Positions 7,024 through 16,047 of a stretch of 64,000 nt of DNA are shown here, in pieces (positions within the stretch are counted from its first letter, which is position 1; each line of letters begins with the position of its first letter). A model generated the notes under the pieces. That model was given only the letters and a program-made list of their open reading frames with translations, was not told the origin of the DNA and searched no databases. A program made the position numbers and the translations under genes. The stretch is from contig NZ_JAUCGQ010000002.1 in assembly GCF_030362835.1 (NCBI RefSeq), positions 248,001-312,000 on the forward strand. The letters run 5' to 3'. The DNA comes from Cellulomonas alba. Its GTDB lineage: Bacteria; Actinomycetota; Actinomycetes; Actinomycetales; Cellulomonadaceae.

Positions 7024-7866
7024 TCAGAGGCGGACGGTGCCCTCGACGACCGTCACGGTGGCGCCTCCGACCCAGATCCGGCCGGAGTCCTCGCGCTCGA
7101 CGTGCACGCGCCCCGCGCGGCCGACCGCGGTGCCCTGGGCCGCGACGTACGCGGCGGGCGCCCGGCCGGTGCGCGTCAGCCACTCGCCGACCGACGCGTT
7201 GAGGCTGCCGGTGACCGGGTCCTCCTGGATGCCGATCCCCGGCGCGAACGCGCGCATCTCGAACGCGGTCCGGCCGCCCGCCGGGCGGGGTGCGACGACG
7301 CCGAGCTTGCCGGGCGCGGCGCGCGACCAGTCGGGCCGGAGCTCGAGCACCCGGTCCGCCGCGTCGAGCAGGAGCACCGGCCACGCGGGCCCGTTGTCGA
7401 GCAGCCGGTGGTCGACGACGGCGTCGGCGGGCAGCCCCAGCACGTCGAGCGCGGACGCGAGCTCGGCGTCCTCGAGGGGTCGGTCCTGCCGCAGCGGCGG
7501 CGCCGCGAAGGCGAGGCGGTCGCCCGTGCGGCGGATGGTCACGGGCCCGACCGTGCAGTCCTGGGTGATCGTGTCGCCGTCCACCGGGAGGCCGCCCGCG
7601 CCGAGCCACGCGTGGCACGTGCCGAGCGTCGGGTGGCCGGCGAACGGCAGCTCGCCGCCGGGCGTGAAGATGCGGACGCGGTAGTCGGCGCCGGGGCGGG
7701 TCGGGCGCAGCAGGAACGTCGTCTCCGACAGGTTGGTCCACCGCGCGAACGCCGCGAGCTGCGCGTCGCTCAGGTCGTCGGCGTCGTGCACCACGGCGAC
7801 GGGGTTGCCGAGCAGCGGCGTCGACGTGAAGACGTCGACCTCGGTGTAGCGGTGGGCGGCAGGCAT
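7024..7866 (-). CDS. PhzF-family isomerase/epimerase-like protein
   Basis: The 280-residue protein has the two-lobed diaminopimelate-epimerase fold of the PhzF family. The catalytic glutamate is in TNLSETTF (E48), the first lobe has PGGELPFAGHPTLGT, and the second lobe has GIQEDPVTGSLNAS, both family hallmarks. In phenazine producers PhzF isomerizes DHHA, but most family members in non-producers have unknown substrates, and no other phenazine genes are present here. The ATG follows a TACCGT hexamer by 6 nt and has no ribosome site, which suggests a leaderless transcript. It is divergent from the Pls-like synthetase gene, with 195 bp between the starts. Confidence 0.85.
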   Translation of the reverse strand: MPAAHRYTEVDVFTSTPLLGNPVAVVHDADDLSDAQLAAFARWTNLSETTFLLRPTRPGADYRVRIFTPGGELPFAGHPTLGTCHAWLGAGGLPVDGDTITQDCTVGPVTIRRTGDRLAFAAPPLRQDRPLEDAELASALDVLGLPADAVVDHRLLDNGPAWPVLLLDAADRVLELRPDWSRAAPGKLGVVAPRPAGGRTAFEMRAFAPGIGIQEDPVTGSLNASVGEWLTRTGRAPAAYVAAQGTAVGRAGRVHVEREDSGRIWVGGATVTVVEGTVRL

Positions 7867-8061: not shown

Positions 8062-11000
8062 GTGGCGGAGGGAGGCCGGCGCGACCCGCCGAGGTCCCGC
8101 CGGGCACGGGTGGTCGACGACGAGCTGTTCTCGAGGTCCGGCCGGGCCGCGCACCCGCGCACGCTCCTCGACGTGCTCGACGCGACCGTCGGGGCGCACG
8201 GGGACGCGCCGGCGATCGACGACGGCACGGCCGTCCTGACGTACGACGAGCTCTCGGACGCGGTCCACGCCGGTGCCGCGGCGCTCGCGCGGCGCGGTGT
8301 GCGCCGCGGTGACCGCGTCGGCGTGCGGGTGCCGTCCGGGACGGCCGAGCTCTACGTCGCGATCCTCGCGGTGCTCGCGTCCGGTGCCGCGTACGTGCCG
8401 GTCGACGTCGACGACCCCGACGAGCGGGCGCGGCTCGTGTTCGAGGAGGCGAAGGTCGCGCTGATCGTGGGGGAGGGCGACCTCGACGCGTGGCGCGCGG
8501 CGCGGGGGCGGAGCGCGGCGGTCACGGCGCCCGAGCCCGGTGACGACGCGTGGATCATCTTCACGTCCGGCTCGACGGGCACCCCGAAGGGCGTCGCGGT
8601 CACGCACCGCTCGGCCGCCGCGTTCGTCGACGCCGAGGCGGGGCTGTTCCTGCAGGGGGCGCCGCTCGGCCCGGGCGACCGCGTGCTCGCCGGGCTCTCG
8701 GTCGCGTTCGACGCGAGCTGCGAGGAGATGTGGCTGGCGTGGGCGCACGGCGCCTGCCTCGTCCCCGCGCCGCGCGCACTCGTCCGCACGGGCATGGACC
8801 TCGGCCCGTGGCTCGTCGCGCAGGGCGTCACGGTGATCTCGACCGTGCCGACTCTGGCAGGGCTCTGGCGGCCCGAGGAGCTCGCCGGCGTGCGGCTGCT
8901 GATCTTCGGCGGCGAGGCCGTGCCGCCCGAGCTCGCAGCCCGGCTGCTTGCGCCCGGCCGCGAGGTGTGGAACACGTACGGGCCGACGGAGGCGACGGTC
9001 GTCTCGTGCGCGGCGCTGCTCACGGGCGACGGACCCGTGCGGATCGGGCACGCGCTCGACGGGTGGGACCTCGCGGTGGTCGGTCCGGACGGCGCGACAG
9101 TCGAGCCGGGCGGCACCGGCGAGCTCGTCATCGGCGGCGTCGGGCTCGCGCGGTACCTGGACCCCGCGAAGGACGCCGAACGGTTCGCGGCGGCGCCCGC
9201 CCTCGGGTGGGCGCGCGCCTACCGGAGCGGCGACCTCGTGCGCGCCGAGCCCGAGGGGCTCGTCTTCGTCGGCCGCGCCGACGACCAGGTGAAGATCGGC
9301 GGCCGGCGCATCGAGCTCGGTGAGGTCGACGCGGCGCTGGGCGACCTGGTCGGCGTGGCGGGGGCGGCGGCCGCGGTGCGCCGGACGCCCGGCGGCGCCG
9401 CGATCCTCGTCGGGTACCTGCTGCCGGCGCCGGGCGTCGCGCTCGACCTCGACGCGGCGCGTGTCGCGCTACGCGACCGGCTGCCCGCGGCGCTCGTGCC
9501 GCTGCTCGCCGCGGTCGACACGCTGCCGACCCGCGGCTCCGGCAAGGTCGACCGGGACGCGCTGCCCTGGCCGCTCCCGGGCGTCGGCGGCGGGGCCGGG
9601 GGTGGCGGGGCCGGTGGTGGCCCAGGCGGCGCCGAGGGTGCTGCGCTGGGCGGGACGGCGGCCTGGGTGGCGACGCGGTGGACCGCGGCGCTCGGGGCGC
9701 CCGTCGCGGGGGCGGACGACGACTTCTTCGCCGCCGGTGGCGGCAGCCTCGTGGCCGCGCAGCTCGTGTCAGCGCTGCGTGAGAGGTTCCCGACCGTGAC
9801 GGTCGCGGACGTGTACGAGAACCCGCGGCTCGGCGCGCTCGCGCGGCGGCTCGACGAGCTCGAGCCGGTCGGGGCCGCGACGCCGCGCGCGGTCGCGCCG
9901 GTGCCCGCGTCGGCGCGCGCGTGGCAGTGGCTCGCCGCGGTGCCGCTCGCGGCGCTGGTGGGTCTGCGGTGGCTGACGTGGACGCTCGCCGCGGGTGCGG
10001 TGCTCGACGCTGTCGCGCCGGCGCCGTGGCTGCCGAGCGTCCCGCACGTGTGGTGGTGGGTGCTGCTCGGGTGGGTGGTGCTCGTGAGCCCGCTCGGCCG
10101 CATGGGCAGCACGGTGCTGGTCGCGCGGGTGATGCTGCGCGGTCTGCGGCCCGGGCGCTACCCGCGCGGCGGGTCGGTGCACCTGCGGCTGTGGTTCGTC
10201 GAGAGCTGGGCGCACGCGGCGGGAGCGGGCAACGTGTCGTGCGCGCCGTGGACCACGCTCTACGCCCGGGCGCTCGGCGCGAAGGTCGCGCCCGACGTCG
10301 ACCTGCACGCGTTCCCGCCCGTCACCGGCCTGCTCTCGCTCGGCGCCGGGTGCGCGGTCGAGCCCGAGGTCGACCTGACGGGCCACTGGCTCGACGGTGA
10401 CGTGCTCCATGTCGGGCGGGTGCGCGTCGACAAGCGTGCGACGGTCGGGACCCGGTCGGTGCTCGCGCCGGGCTCGCGCGTCGGCCAGGGTGCGCAGGTC
10501 GCGCCCGGCTCTGCGGTCCGCGGGTCGGTCCCGCCGGGCGAGCTGTGGGCGGGCTCGCCCGCCGCGTTCGCGGACCCGGTGGGCGAGGGCTGGCCGCATG
10601 CGCGGGCCCCGCGGTCGCGGCGCTGGGTCGCCGCGTACGGGGCGACGGCGGCTGCGGTCGGCGCGCTGCCCGTGGTGTCGGTGGTGACGGGCCTCGTCGT
10701 GGTCGGGATCGGCATGCGCGGCGCTGCGACGTGGGGCGAGGCGGTTCGCGACGCGGCGCGAGCCGTCCCGCTCGGCGCGGCCGTCGCGTCGGTCGTGCTC
10801 GCGCTCGTCACGGGCGTCGCGGTGCGGCTGCTCGGCCGCGGGATGCTCGACGGCTACCACCCGGTGCACGGGCGGGTCGGCTGGCAGGTGTGGACCACGC
10901 AGCGGCTGATGGACGACGCTCGCTCCACGCTGTTCCCGCTCTACGCCAGCACGCTGACACCGGTGTGGCTCCGAGCGCTCGGCGCGCGCGTGGGCCGCGA

Positions 11001-12003
11001 CGTCGAGGCGTCGACCGTGCTGATGCTGCCGACCATGACGAGCGTCGGCGACGGCGCGTTCCTCGCGGACGACACGCTGATCGGCTCGTACGAGCTGGGC
11101 CGGGGCTGGATGCACGTCGAGCCCGCGAAGGTCGGCAAGCGCGCGTTCCTCGGCAACTCGGGCATGATCGCGCCCGGTCGCGCCGTGCCGAAGCGCGGGC
11201 TCGTGGCGGTGCTGTCGGCGACGCCGCCCGCCGCGAAGGCCGGCACGTCGTGGCTCGGTTCGCCGCCCGAGCGGCTGCGCCGCACCGCCTCCGACGTCGA
11301 CGCGGACCGCACGTTCGAGCCGGCGACGCGGCTGCGGATCGCGCGCGCGGTCGTGGAGCTCTGCCGGTTCGTGCCGGTGGCGTGCTCGTTCGGGCTCGGC
11401 GTCGCGGTGCTGCTCGTGCTCGACGCGGTGGTGCGGACCGCCGGCGTCGGGACCGCGGCCTGGGTGTCGCCGCTCGTCGTGCTCGGCGCGGCTGCGGTCG
11501 CCGCGGGGCTGGCCGTCGTCGCGAAGTGGGCGCTGGTCGGGCGGCTGCGCGCGGGGGAGCACCCGCTGTGGAGCTCGTTCGTGTGGCGGAACGAGCTCGC
11601 GGACACGTTCGTCGAGGCGCTCGCGGTGCCGTGGATCGGGCCGGCCGCGGTCGGGTCGCCCGCGCTGACGCTCTGGCTGCGCGCGCTGGGCGCGCGGATC
11701 GGACGCGGCACGTGGTGTGAGACGTACTGGCTGCCCGAGGCGGACCTCGTGACGCTCGGCGACGGCGCCACCGTGAACCGTGGGTGCGTGCTGCAGACGC
11801 ACCTGTTCCATGATCGGGTGATGAGCATCGACACCGTCACGCTGGGCGCAGGTGCGAGCCTCGGCCCGCACGGCGTCGTGCTGCCCGCCGCGAGCCTGGG
11901 CGCGGGCGCCGCCGTCGGGCCCGCGTCGCTGGTGCTGCGCGGCGAGGCCATCCCGGCGGGCTCGACGTGGACGGGGAACCCGGTCGTGCCGGTGCCCGCA
12001 TGA
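8062..12003 (+). CDS. Pls/PosA-type membrane-bound non-ribosomal peptide synthetase (A-T-[TM2-C]x3)
   Basis: The roughly 1,300-residue single-module synthetase has an adenylation domain (about 30-505) with TSGSTGTPKGVAVTH (A3), NTYGPTEATV (A5), YRSGDLV (A7), GRADDQVKIGGRRIELGEV (A8) and the A10 lysine in GSGKVDRDALP. A Gly-rich linker leads to a carrier domain with DDDFFAAGGGSLVA, whose Ser562 would bear phosphopantetheine. The C-terminal half has three pairs of hydrophobic helices (about 625-680, 854-923, 1106-1162), each followed by a left-handed beta-helix acyltransferase-like domain. This layout is that of epsilon-poly-lysine synthetase (Pls) of Streptomyces albulus. Read by eye, the pocket code is D-A-E-S-I-G-T-V-V-K. 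Start is uncertain: GTG 8062 or in-frame GTG 8110; neither has a good ribosome site. The stop overlaps the peptidase start. The product is inferred, not shown. Confidence 0.85.
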   Translation: MAEGGRRDPPRSRRARVVDDELFSRSGRAAHPRTLLDVLDATVGAHGDAPAIDDGTAVLTYDELSDAVHAGAAALARRGVRRGDRVGVRVPSGTAELYVAILAVLASGAAYVPVDVDDPDERARLVFEEAKVALIVGEGDLDAWRAARGRSAAVTAPEPGDDAWIIFTSGSTGTPKGVAVTHRSAAAFVDAEAGLFLQGAPLGPGDRVLAGLSVAFDASCEEMWLAWAHGACLVPAPRALVRTGMDLGPWLVAQGVTVISTVPTLAGLWRPEELAGVRLLIFGGEAVPPELAARLLAPGREVWNTYGPTEATVVSCAALLTGDGPVRIGHALDGWDLAVVGPDGATVEPGGTGELVIGGVGLARYLDPAKDAERFAAAPALGWARAYRSGDLVRAEPEGLVFVGRADDQVKIGGRRIELGEVDAALGDLVGVAGAAAAVRRTPGGAAILVGYLLPAPGVALDLDAARVALRDRLPAALVPLLAAVDTLPTRGSGKVDRDALPWPLPGVGGGAGGGGAGGGPGGAEGAALGGTAAWVATRWTAALGAPVAGADDDFFAAGGGSLVAAQLVSALRERFPTVTVADVYENPRLGALARRLDELEPVGAATPRAVAPVPASARAWQWLAAVPLAALVGLRWLTWTLAAGAVLDAVAPAPWLPSVPHVWWWVLLGWVVLVSPLGRMGSTVLVARVMLRGLRPGRYPRGGSVHLRLWFVESWAHAAGAGNVSCAPWTTLYARALGAKVAPDVDLHAFPPVTGLLSLGAGCAVEPEVDLTGHWLDGDVLHVGRVRVDKRATVGTRSVLAPGSRVGQGAQVAPGSAVRGSVPPGELWAGSPAAFADPVGEGWPHARAPRSRRWVAAYGATAAAVGALPVVSVVTGLVVVGIGMRGAATWGEAVRDAARAVPLGAAVASVVLALVTGVAVRLLGRGMLDGYHPVHGRVGWQVWTTQRLMDDARSTLFPLYASTLTPVWLRALGARVGRDVEASTVLMLPTMTSVGDGAFLADDTLIGSYELGRGWMHVEPAKVGKRAFLGNSGMIAPGRAVPKRGLVAVLSATPPAAKAGTSWLGSPPERLRRTASDVDADRTFEPATRLRIARAVVELCRFVPVACSFGLGVAVLLVLDAVVRTAGVGTAAWVSPLVVLGAAAVAAGLAVVAKWALVGRLRAGEHPLWSSFVWRNELADTFVEALAVPWIGPAAVGSPALTLWLRALGARIGRGTWCETYWLPEADLVTLGDGATVNRGCVLQTHLFHDRVMSIDTVTLGAGASLGPHGVVLPAASLGAGAAVGPASLVLRGEAIPAGSTWTGNPVVPVPA

Positions 12004-13298
12004 CGGACGCCGACCCCTACCAGCCGCGGCGCGGCGACGGCGGGCTCGACGTCTCGCGTTACGAGTTGGAGCTCGACTACCGCGTCGCCTCGAACCGGCT
12101 CGACGCCCGGGCTCGGGTGCACGCGACCGCACAACGCGCGCTCGACCGGTTCTCGCTCGACCTGGCCCACCTGCGCATCACCAAGGTGCTCGTCGACGGC
12201 CGGCGGCCCGAGCGCTGGACCCACCGAGACGGGCGCGTGCTGATCCGGCCGGACCGCGTGATCCCGCCCGGGTCGGCGCTGGTCGTCGAGCTGCAGTACA
12301 CCGGGCAGCCACGGCCGGTCGTCGGGCCGTGGGGCGAGGTCGGCTGGGAGGAGCTCACCGACGGCGTCATCGTCGCGGGTCAGCCCGACGGGTCGCCGTC
12401 CTGGTTCCCGTGCCACGACGACCCCGCGGACAAGGCGACGTTCGGCATCACGGTCACGACCGAGGCGGGCTACGCCGTGGTGTGCAACGGCCGGCTCGTC
12501 TCACGCACCGCGAAGGCGAGCCGCGTGCGGTGGGTGTACGACCAGCCCGAGCCGACCGCCTCCTACCTCGCGACGGTCCAGGTCGGGCGGTACGAGCCCC
12601 TCGAGCTCGCGCCGGGTCCCGTGCGCCAGGTCGCGTGGGTGCCGCTGCGGCTGCGCGAGGTGGCCCGCCACGACCTCGGCCGGCAGCCCGAGATGCTGCA
12701 CGTGTTCGAGGAGCTGTTCGGGCCGTACCCGTTCGGCGAGTACGCGGTGGTCGTGACGGACGACGCGCTCGAGATCCCGCTCGAGGCCCACGGTCTGTCG
12801 GTGTTCGGCGCCAACCACCTCGACGGCCGGCGCGGGTCGGAGCGGCTGGTCGCGCACGAGCTCGCGCACCAGTGGTTCGGCAACAGCCTGACGGTCGCGC
12901 ACTGGCGCGACATCTGGCTGCACGAGGGGTTCGCCTGCTACGCCGAGTGGCTGTGGTCGCAGGCGTCGGGCGGGCGCTCGGCCGACGTGCTCGCACGCGC
13001 CGCGCACGACCGGCTGGCGCGGCTCCCGCAGGACCTCGTCATCGGCGACCCGGGCCGCGACCGGATGTTCGACGACCGGCTCTACAAGCGGGGAGCGCTC
13101 GCGCTGCACGCCCTGCGCCGGACCGTCGGCGACGCGGCGTTCTTCGCGACGCTGCGCGAGTGGACGCGGCGGTACCGGCACGGGTCCGTGACGACCGAGG
13201 CGTTCGTGGAGTGCGCGTCCGCGGTCTCGCGGCGCCGCGTCGACGAGGTGCTCGAGCCCTGGCTGCACCAGGCGACGCTGCCGACGCTCCCGCGCTGA
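12000..13298 (+). CDS. M1-family zinc metallopeptidase (aminopeptidase)
   Basis: The 432-residue gluzincin has a complete zinc site: H286-E-L-A-H290 followed after 18 residues by E309 (WLHEGFACYAEW), the M1 signature HExxH-x18-E. The canonical GAMEN exopeptidase motif seems replaced by IPLEAHGLSVFG, so strict aminopeptidase activity is not certain. A YKRGALALHALR helix, typical of M1 enzymes, lies C-terminal. There is no signal peptide and no long C-terminal ERAP-like domain, as in short actinobacterial members; it is probably cytoplasmic. The ATG overlaps the stop of the Pls-like synthetase (ATGA), implying translational coupling. A role in trimming or degrading the synthetase product, as proposed for the Streptomyces poly-lysine-degrading aminopeptidases, is an inference from context. 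Confidence 0.88.
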   Translation: MTDADPYQPRRGDGGLDVSRYELELDYRVASNRLDARARVHATAQRALDRFSLDLAHLRITKVLVDGRRPERWTHRDGRVLIRPDRVIPPGSALVVELQYTGQPRPVVGPWGEVGWEELTDGVIVAGQPDGSPSWFPCHDDPADKATFGITVTTEAGYAVVCNGRLVSRTAKASRVRWVYDQPEPTASYLATVQVGRYEPLELAPGPVRQVAWVPLRLREVARHDLGRQPEMLHVFEELFGPYPFGEYAVVVTDDALEIPLEAHGLSVFGANHLDGRRGSERLVAHELAHQWFGNSLTVAHWRDIWLHEGFACYAEWLWSQASGGRSADVLARAAHDRLARLPQDLVIGDPGRDRMFDDRLYKRGALALHALRRTVGDAAFFATLREWTRRYRHGSVTTEAFVECASAVSRRRVDEVLEPWLHQATLPTLPR

Positions 13299-13307
13299 GC
13301 GAGCGCG

Positions 13308-14048
13308 TCAGCCCGGCCCGGCGTCGAGCGTCGGCGCGTCGCCCGGGCCGCGCGCGCCGAGTCGCAGCGCGACCGCGCCGACGCAGCCCGGCACCGCGTC
13401 CGCGTCCGCGACCCACCAGCCCGGGGCTGCGAGCGGGGCCGGGACGAGCACGCGGTGCGGCGGCTCGACCGTGACGTCGCCCGGGTCGACCGCGAGGCCG
13501 ACACCGGCGGCCTTCAGCACCGCCTCGACCCGGACCCAGCGGCGCAGGACCGCGGGGTCGTCCTCGACGGTCGCCGGCGCGTCCGCCCGCGGCTCGCGCA
13601 CCCGGTCGGCGTGCGCGACGGCCGCGACCGCGTCCACGTCCGGCCCGCGCTCCGGACCCGTGCGCGCCCCGCCGTCGCGTCCGCCGGCCAGGAGGTCCGC
13701 GAGCCCGGCCGTGCGGGTGCCGACGCGCTCGACGTCGACCCCCAGTCCGAGGACCGGTCCGTCGGCGACCGCCGCCACCACGAGCGACCCGGCGCGACTC
13801 AGCGACACCCCGACCTCCCCGACGCCGCGCACCCGCGCGACGGGCGCCCCGTGGCGCGCGCTCCCGCACCGCGGGCACCGCCGCGTCGTCACGACGCCCT
13901 CGGGATCGACGCCGTGCACGTGCGCGACCGTGTCCCGCACGAGCGCGTCGGCCACCGCCCGCCGGGCGTCCGCGACGCCACGGCGGGTCTCGCCCGACGC
14001 CGGGTCGGGTGTCTCGCGCCACCGCAGCACGACCCGCACGGCGCCCAT
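13308..14048 (-). CDS. 4'-phosphopantetheinyl transferase (Sfp-type)
   Basis: The 246-residue protein carries the Sfp/AcpT signatures: LGVDVERV, whose acidic residues bind magnesium, and WVRVEAVLKAAGVGL, the counterpart of the W-x-x-K/R-E-A-x-x-K motif. Enzymes of this type move phosphopantetheine from CoA to a serine of carrier proteins. It ends 9 bp from the end of the M1 peptidase gene, in convergent orientation, which places it in the same small locus as the synthetase whose Ser562 needs this modification. The ATG at 14048 is the only plausible start and has no clear ribosome site. An insertion-like loop with several Cys/Arg (TTRRCPRCGSARHG) in the N-terminal half resembles the CxRCG segment of actinobacterial members. 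Confidence 0.85.
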   Translation of the reverse strand: MGAVRVVLRWRETPDPASGETRRGVADARRAVADALVRDTVAHVHGVDPEGVVTTRRCPRCGSARHGAPVARVRGVGEVGVSLSRAGSLVVAAVADGPVLGLGVDVERVGTRTAGLADLLAGGRDGGARTGPERGPDVDAVAAVAHADRVREPRADAPATVEDDPAVLRRWVRVEAVLKAAGVGLAVDPGDVTVEPPHRVLVPAPLAAPGWWVADADAVPGCVGAVALRLGARGPGDAPTLDAGPG

Positions 14049-14219
14049 CCTGTCGTGCTGCGCGGTCGGGGCCGGGCCGCCGCGCTCGGCCGCCGGTCAG
14101 GCGCCGGGCCGGACCGACAGCCCGGCGGCGCGAGGGTTAGGGTCGCCGAGAGGCCGGTGCGCAGGCAGCGCCGGGCGGTCGGCGGGCGAGACGAGGCCCG
14201 CGACGGAGAGGGACACCCA

Positions 14220-15224
14220 GTGACGAACGGTCTGACGGTCGGGCTCGCGGCCGCGCTCGAGCAGTTCCACCCGCGCGACATCGTGGACGTCGCGACCCTG
14301 GCCGAGGAGCACGGCTTCTCGGGCGTGATGGCGGCCGACCACTTCCAGCCGTGGGTGCCCGCGCAGGGGCAGGCGTCGTTCGTCTGGAACGTGCTGACGG
14401 CGGTCGGCGAGCGCACGCGCGGCGACCTCGGCCCCGGCGTCACGGCGCCGACCTTCCGGTGGCACCCGGCGATGGTGGCGCAGGCCAGCGCGACGCTCGC
14501 GGCGATGTACCCGGGCCGGCACTGGCTCGGGCTCGGGTCCGGCGAGGCGCTGAACGAGCACATCGTCGCGCAGTACTGGCCCGAGGCGCCCGAGCGGATC
14601 AACCGCATGTTCGAGGCCATCGACATCATCAAGAAGCTGTTCTCGGCGTCGCTCGCGGGCAAGGACACGAAGCACGCCGGGCAGTTCTACAAGCTCGAGT
14701 CGACCCGGCTCTGGACGATGCCCGAGGTGGCGCCCGAGATCCTCGTGGCGACCGCCGGGCCCGTCACGGCGAAGCGCGCGGGCCGGCACGCCGACGGGCT
14801 CATCACCGTCGGCGCGCCGCTCGAGAAGATCGGCGGCCTGTTCGCCAAGTTCGACGAGGGCGCACGCGAGTCGGGCCGCGACCCCGAGCAGATGCCGAAG
14901 GTGCTGCAGCTGCACCTCTCGTGGGCGCCGACCGACGAGGAGGCTCTCGCGAACGCGATGCAGCAGTGGCCGAACGGCGGCATGAAGTTCCCGAAGGGCG
15001 ACGTGCGGTCGCCGTTCGAGTTCGAGCAGATGGCGAAGCTCGTCCGGCCCGAGGACTTCGAGGGGCGCATGGTCATCTCCGCCGACCCGGACGCCCACCG
15101 CGCCGAGATCCAGAAGTACGTCGACCTCGGGTTCGACCGGATCTACCTGCACAACGTCGGACGCAACCAGCGCGAGTGGGTCGAGGTGTTCGGCCGCGAC
15201 GTGCTGCCGAAGCTGGCGCGGTGA
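14220..15224 (+). CDS. F420-dependent oxidoreductase, G6PDH family (LLM class)
   Basis: The 334-residue TIM-barrel protein belongs to the luciferase-like monooxygenase class. It shows the F420-binding signature of the glucose-6-phosphate dehydrogenase (Fgd) subfamily: [12 protein letters not shown] near residue 40, [19 protein letters not shown], and [13 protein letters not shown] later segment, [12 protein letters not shown], is also family-typical. It probably reduces F420 with a sugar phosphate or uses F420H2 for another substrate; which one cannot be told by eye. The GTG start has a GGAG-containing site about 9 nt upstream. cofE follows 31 bp downstream on the same strand, so the two are likely co-transcribed. 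A TTAGGGT about 80 nt upstream may be the promoter. Confidence 0.88.
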
Positions 15225-15255: not shown

Positions 15256-16047
15256 ATGACGGCCGAGCTGCGCGTCTGGGCGCCCGACGGGCTGCCGGAG
15301 ATCGCGCCGGGCGACGACCTGGTCGCGCTGCTCGCGGGCGTCCTGCGCGCCGGCGAGCCCCTGGAGGACGGCGACGTGCTGGTCCTCACGAGCAAGGTCG
15401 TGTCGAAGGCCGAGGGCCGGTACGTCGCGGCGGCCGACCGCGAGCAGGCGATCAGCGACGAGACGGTGCGCGTCGTCGCGACGCGCGAGCACGCGGGCGG
15501 CGTCACGCGGATCGTCGAGAACCGGCTCGGCCTCGTCATGGCGGCCGCCGGGGTCGACGCGAGCAACACGCCCGCCGGGACCGTGCTGCTGCTGCCGGTC
15601 GACCCGGACGAGTCGGCGCGCCGGCTGCGGGCCGGCCTCGGCGAGGCGCTCGGCGTCCGGCTCGGCGTGATCGTCTCGGACACCGCCGGGCGGCCGTGGC
15701 GCGACGGGCTCACCGACATCGCGATCGGCGCCGCGGGCATCCAGGTGCTCGACGACCTCCGTGGGCAGGTCGACTCGTTCGGCCGCCTGCTCGTCATGAC
15801 GGTCGCCGCCGTCGCCGACGAGGTGGCCGCCGCGGCCGAGCTGGTCAAGGGCAAGGCGACCGGGCGGCCGCTCGCGGTCGTGCGCGGTCTCGCGCACCTC
15901 GTGACGGACGACGACGGGCCGGGCGCGCGGGCGCTGGTCCGACTGGGCGAGGCCGACATGTTCGCGCAGGGCAGCGCCGAGGCGTACGCGGCGGGCTGGA
16001 AGGACGCCCTCGCGGCGGAGGCGGGTCCGGAGCAGCAGCAGCCGTAG
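15256..16047 (+). CDS. cofE: Coenzyme F420-0:L-glutamate ligase (CofE / FbiB N-domain)
   Basis: The 263-residue protein adds the gamma-linked glutamate tail to F420-0. Conserved stretches are [15 protein letters not shown] (GTP/substrate loop), [19 protein letters not shown] and [21 protein letters not shown] (metal-binding acidic cluster). In mycobacteria FbiB has a second, C-terminal FMN-binding domain that reduces dehydro-F420-0; here the protein stops after the CofE domain, as in archaea. A separate dehydro-F420 reductase should therefore exist elsewhere. It follows the F420-dependent oxidoreductase gene with a 31-bp gap. Function is assigned with high confidence from motifs and neighbours. 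Confidence 0.92.

Follow-up and report, generated by a model that had tools for sequence, protein, structure and literature searches.

A candidate epsilon-poly-L-lysine cassette in Cellulomonas alba: a synthetase, a coupled M1 peptidase, and a phosphopantetheinyl transferase found beside the pair in Micrococcales

We analyzed a 64,000-nucleotide stretch of Cellulomonas alba DNA (here, the window) that holds a compact three-gene locus. The synthetase gene lies on the forward strand (8062..12003; GTG start at 8062, TGA stop at 12003, 1,313 amino acids) and was delimited by ORF calling and domain models. It is followed on the same strand by a gene for a PldII-like M1 zinc metallopeptidase (12000..13298; ATG start at 12000, 432 amino acids), assigned by its Pfam domains and zinc motif, and then, on the reverse strand, by a gene for an Sfp-type 4'-phosphopantetheinyl transferase (PPTase; 13308..14048; 246 amino acids), assigned by its motifs and an alignment of neighbors. 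By inspection, the start codon of the M1 gene at 12000 overlaps the synthetase stop by 4 bp (ATGA), and the ORF coordinates leave a spacer of 9 bases (13299-13307) between the convergent M1 and PPTase genes. The ORFs and domains therefore agree with the layout described in an earlier note on this DNA: a synthetase, an overlapping M1 gene, and a convergent PPTase gene 9 bp further on.

Upstream, a gene of the PhzC/PhzF family (7024-7866, reverse strand) diverges from the synthetase gene at a distance of 195 bases; it was rejected as a member of the locus, with zero matches at E ≤ 1e-8 in 86 loci, of which 80 were relatives. The locus is followed on the forward strand by genes for a luciferase-like protein of the LLM class (14220-15224) and an F420-0:gamma-glutamyl ligase (15256-16047). 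A scan for promoter and terminator consensus sequences found nothing and is uninformative at this G+C content.

The synthetase combines in a single chain an adenylation (A) domain at about residues 22-506 (AMP-binding, Pfam, 195 bits), a carrier (T) domain at residues 535-597 (PP-binding, Pfam, 43 bits; serine in DDFFAAGGGS), and a predicted C-terminal polymerization part at residues 621-1308, an organization that, by Pfam, NCBIfam, and motif search, is that of Pls. The NCBIfam model TIGR02353, named "Pls/PosA family non-ribosomal peptide synthetase," matched it at 690 bits (cut-off, 423). Three related units make up the C-terminal part, with 28-33% identity to one another (mutual alignment, E values of 6e-9 to 3e-11); the Pfam Hexapep model stayed under its cut-off there (24.3 of 27 bits). 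A motif search found no HHxxxD condensation motif in the synthetase, Pfam gave zero matches to condensation or TE models, and the C-terminal part contains a single GxSxG string (GASLG). In PosA, six membrane helices are described as carrying three beta-helices of left-handed type (PMC10522769). In a simple Kyte-Doolittle scan of our synthetase, helix pairs two and three were detected and pair one fell under the threshold of 1.6. The one A domain, one carrier domain, and three related units claimed earlier are thus all present, and two of the three claimed helix pairs appear in the hydropathy scan.

The closest solved relative of the A domain was the epsilon-poly-L-lysine synthase 7wew (639 bits; runner-up, 330 bits). 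Reading the ten-residue specificity code at the motif positions of GrsA, we obtained DAESIGTVVK, and the aligned Pls sequence (7wew) has the same ten residues. Code position 2 is Ala in lysine enzymes, Met in ornithine enzymes, and Phe in diaminopropionate or diaminobutyrate enzymes, according to PMC10522769. The synthetase has the Ala at position 2 and the Glu at position 3 that mark a lysine-type code, and because its code is identical to that of Pls, lysine is the predicted substrate. The earlier proposal of a Pls-type synthetase is supported by the TIGR02353 match, by the nearest A-domain structure, and by the code.

The conservation of the locus was evaluated in two samples: 80 loci, the best 80 of at least 575 relatives, which for that reason lean toward close kin and include no record titled Streptomyces, and 81 genomes of the genus, which overlap with the Cellulomonas loci of the first sample (identical coordinates). 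The code DAESIGTVVK was present in 79 of the best 80 loci, the remaining one having DAESVGTVVK. Many genomes of Nocardia, Rhodococcus, Mycobacterium/Mycolicibacterium, and Tsukamurella carry synthetase-M1 pairs with the lysine code at about 60% identity (L008-L080).

The 432-residue peptidase matched Peptidase_M1 (101 bits) and Peptidase_M1_N (41 bits) in Pfam and has the zinc motif HELAH at residue 286, with a Glu 18 residues on; this HExxH-18-E arrangement is kept in all of the best 80 loci. A simple scan found no hydrophobic stretch in the protein, and its nearest solved structures are zinc metalloproteases of 474 residues (6a8z, 6iff). A modeling paper on PldII proposes two zinc ions at sites unlike an HExxH site, which counts against a PldII-type assignment. 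In each of the best 80 loci the M1 gene lies downstream of the synthetase gene on the same strand, in 75 of them at most 160 bases away; the two matches are 643-2209 bases apart in the other five (L023, L024, L025, L028, and L033, from Williamsia and Tsukamurella). The neighborhood expected for a synthetase-M1 pair is thus conserved among these relatives.

Within the genus, the synthetase was detected in 36 of the 81 genomes (E ≤ 1e-60), 35 of which also exceeded the family cut-off. An M1 orthologue was found at the same threshold in exactly these 36 genomes, always adjacent and on the same strand, and the remaining 45 had none. The synthetase match is interrupted by contig ends in G023 and G095. 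In G070 (C1:1184838-1186899) it falls into two pieces that overlap and read in different frames, pointing to a frameshift or a sequencing error. Our likening of the M1 protein to PldII relies on the shared M1 family and on its presence in every pls-bearing genome of the genus and in no other.

Taken alone, the window PPTase is a faint match: it scored 19.6 bits against Pfam ACPS (PF01648), under the gathering cut-off of 25, and had no match in NCBIfam. Most of the adjacent homologues in other genus genomes passed the ACPS cut-off (the one in G032 fails). When the 18 PPTases encoded beside the pair were aligned, the G, D, W, E, A, and K of the GxD and WxxxEAxxK motifs were invariant, and the profile of this alignment matched the Sfp structure 1qr0 at 2e-11. 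At the level of sequence, this alignment establishes the PPTase as Sfp-type. Its own motifs read GVDVE and WVRVEAVLK, and it thus has Val in place of the Lys that is common in the second motif of Sfp-type PPTases. In Sfp, the Lys of WxxKEAxxK contributes to catalysis. That Lys is present in 16 of the 18 aligned members and replaced by Ala in L007. Six other relatives have Val there while keeping GxDxE and the W, E, A, and K, and Thr and Leu likewise occur among further relatives. A decayed gene, which the change from Lys to Val might suggest, is unsupported given the recurrence of Val with the motifs kept and of Thr. These PPTases share the two motifs with Sfp and differ from it in a CxxC...HG element near the N terminus, invariant in the 18 neighbors.

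An iterated profile search found a convergent PPTase gene after the M1 gene in 18 of the 80 loci, the frames being at most 190 bases apart or overlapping in 17 of these and 1,070 bases apart in L007; the PPTase of L071 is cut by a contig end. The 18 loci come from Cellulomonas, Cellulosimicrobium, Compostimonas, Agreia, Plantibacter, Cryobacterium, Humibacillus, Arthrobacter, and Paenarthrobacter, nine genera of Micrococcales that are named in the relatives' records. Of the best 80 loci (out of at least 575 relatives), 18 of the 22 from Micrococcales and none of the other 58 have a PPTase gene next to the pair, two of these 58 (L059 and L060) being actinobacterial MAGs with no stated order. 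The earlier note had included the PPTase in a three-gene unit; this is supported within Micrococcales and fails in the 58 loci outside it, and we rejected the PPTase as a general partner of pls across Actinobacteria on the same count. Adjacency also divides the genus, where 18 of the 36 synthetase-bearing genomes have the PPTase gene beside the pair and the other 18 do not.

The four Micrococcales loci without an adjacent PPTase are L002, L003, and L005 from Cellulomonas and L066, where the contig stops some 520 bases beyond the M1 match. Whole-genome searches covered the genomes of 20 of the 22 Micrococcales loci (L048 and L058 were left out), and 18 of the 20 contained a PPTase of this Sfp type somewhere: the genomes of L002 and L003 had none, that of L005 had one elsewhere, and that of L066 had one where another contig begins. 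Six Cellulomonas loci (L002-L007) have the LLM gene downstream. Because it is kept in L002 and L003, which have no PPTase, the PPTase gene was lost or gained inside a conserved neighborhood. By inspection, the place of the PPTase gene in L005 (Cellulomonas composti, 13225-14888) is taken by genes for a CGNR-type protein and an EamA-type transporter.

We also looked into which carrier proteins the PPTase could serve, counting carriers and PPTases with one Pfam model each. The window's genome (3.80 Mb, 99.99% complete) has two detected carrier domains, namely AcpP, encoded between fabH and fabF, and that of the synthetase, and two detected PPTases, namely AcpS and the enzyme of the locus. Across the 81 genus genomes, having at least two carriers was associated with having at least two PPTases (51 genomes with both, 20 with neither, and 5 discordant in each direction; Fisher P value = 4e-10, with the relatedness of the genomes ignored). 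A PPTase of the present type (at least 60 bits) was found in 25 of the 36 genomes with the synthetase and in 7 of the 45 without it, in a search that scored 35 candidates per genome and may therefore have missed some. Sorted by position, the 36 synthetase genomes comprise 18 with an adjacent PPTase, 8 with one of the same type elsewhere, and 10 with none of this type; 8 of these 10 have a second PF01648 protein (Pfam match only). In the remaining two, G023 and G075, both fragmented into over 400 contigs, a single PPTase was detected, and AcpS might therefore be enough. All 18 genus genomes with an adjacent PPTase have exactly two PPTases, and 16 of them have exactly two carriers. At least two PPTases also occur in 22 of the 45 genus genomes without the synthetase.

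Three alternatives to a polylysine locus with its own activator were weighed. The same machinery might make a different cationic product, such as a polymer or oligomer built from ornithine, diaminobutyrate, or beta-lysine, and the Pls/PosA family does include synthetases of ornithine, diaminobutyrate, and diaminopropionate polymers (PMC10522769). However, the agreement with Pls at all ten code positions, Ala at position 2 included, makes such a product improbable, and for that reason we dropped it as a first choice; moreover, PMC8117764 reports the three diaminobutyrate and diaminopropionate synthetases in a gene context unlike the pls-peptidase operon. It is more improbable still that the M1 protein has a housekeeping role as an aminopeptidase, with no tie to the polymer. 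Its database names are general ones (aminopeptidase N, M1 family metallopeptidase, peptidase M1), but within the genus it occurs in exactly the genomes that have the synthetase, which led us to rule this out, and the ATGA coupling and the published role of pldII speak against it as well.

The alternative that the PPTase is a general Sfp-type enzyme that is merely next door, with no functional tie to the synthetase, deserves more weight than these two, yet we consider it unlikely. It would account for a gene on the strand opposite to the pair, for its absence beside the pair in the 58 non-Micrococcales loci of the best 80, and for the half of the synthetase-bearing genus genomes in which it is not adjacent. 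Against it, the window's genome has no other detected carrier domain that would require this PPTase, the genus genomes with adjacency mostly have exactly two carriers, and adjacency extends over the nine genera named above. Our best reading, drawn from genome content, is that the PPTase would be a dedicated activator of the synthetase. The data fit a PPTase that is retained for the synthetase in genomes with no other need of one and that is replaceable given another PPTase.

The locus can be compared with several known systems. In Streptomyces albulus, pldII is reported to have a 4-bp overlap with pls within a single operon (PMC4361855) and is described as "translationally coupled" to it (PMC9223678). 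The window shares with this system the synthetase family, the ten-residue code, the downstream peptidase gene, and the 4-bp overlap, and it differs in the convergent Sfp-type PPTase gene that follows the pair. The pls of Corynebacterium variabile, in an operon with a peptidase gene, yielded epsilon-polylysine of 26-35 residues in S. coelicolor (PMC8117764); the synthetase type and the operon with a peptidase gene are alike, and a PPTase is not named in the gene context given in the results section of that paper. As reported in the same source, the single coryneform pls gene examined was silent in its native host, and on expression in C. glutamicum the protein was made and the polymer was not detected, for which the authors suspected regulation. 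The C. glutamicum control genome in our analysis had a TIGR02353 match over the cut-off, though this species served as a pls expression host in PMC8117764. PosA, the delta-poly-L-ornithine synthetase of Acinetobacter baumannii, is alike in its NCBIfam family name and, where described, its C-terminal organization, whereas its code position 2 is Met where the window has Ala, and the substrates differ. The open-licence literature on pls or polylysine and PPTases, as far as its texts were available, yielded no description of a PPTase beside pls. Because the pls-pldII pair, 4-bp overlap included, is already published, the window adds one more example of a known arrangement. The synthetase-M1 pair is thus established knowledge, and the novelty is the linked PPTase, a modest addition that concerns one order only.

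The domain order, specificity code, gene coupling, conserved neighborhood, and co-occurrence, all observed directly, make it very probable that the locus is an epsilon-poly-L-lysine cassette of a synthetase, a PPTase activator, and a PldII-type peptidase; by analogy with published homologues, this would extend to the product, the C-terminal fold, and the role of the peptidase. Epsilon-polylysine-like clusters form the antiSMASH class NAPAA, a term that also turns up in genome papers. In the mechanism that we propose, the PPTase would load phosphopantetheine onto the carrier domain of the synthetase, and the adenylation domain would activate L-lysine and transfer it to the carrier domain. The C-terminal part, embedded in the membrane, with helix pairs and three acyltransferase-like beta-helix units in between, would then link lysines through their epsilon-amine, with no classical condensation domain involved. 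The PldII-type M1 peptidase of the pair would hydrolyze the polymer, protecting the producer and helping to set the chain length. A coupled degrading peptidase, as the earlier note had it, is borne out and published as pls-pldII for S. albulus and C. variabile, and "trim" is the weakest word in that note: the role published for PldII is degradation with a postulated self-protection, and its repression altered chain length.

Epsilon-polylysine is a commercial food preservative, and a compact natural cassette with a likely activator of its own, from a host with one other detected carrier, would be a convenient expression unit. These observations also raise a testable question, namely, whether PPTase supply is one reason for the failure of cloned pls in some hosts. 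Tentatively, and with slightly less than even confidence, we suggest that the Micrococcales locus may be a self-contained three-gene cassette with its own dedicated PPTase, in hosts that often have no other carrier besides AcpP, and that activator supply, beyond promoter control, may decide the productivity of a horizontally acquired or heterologously expressed pls.
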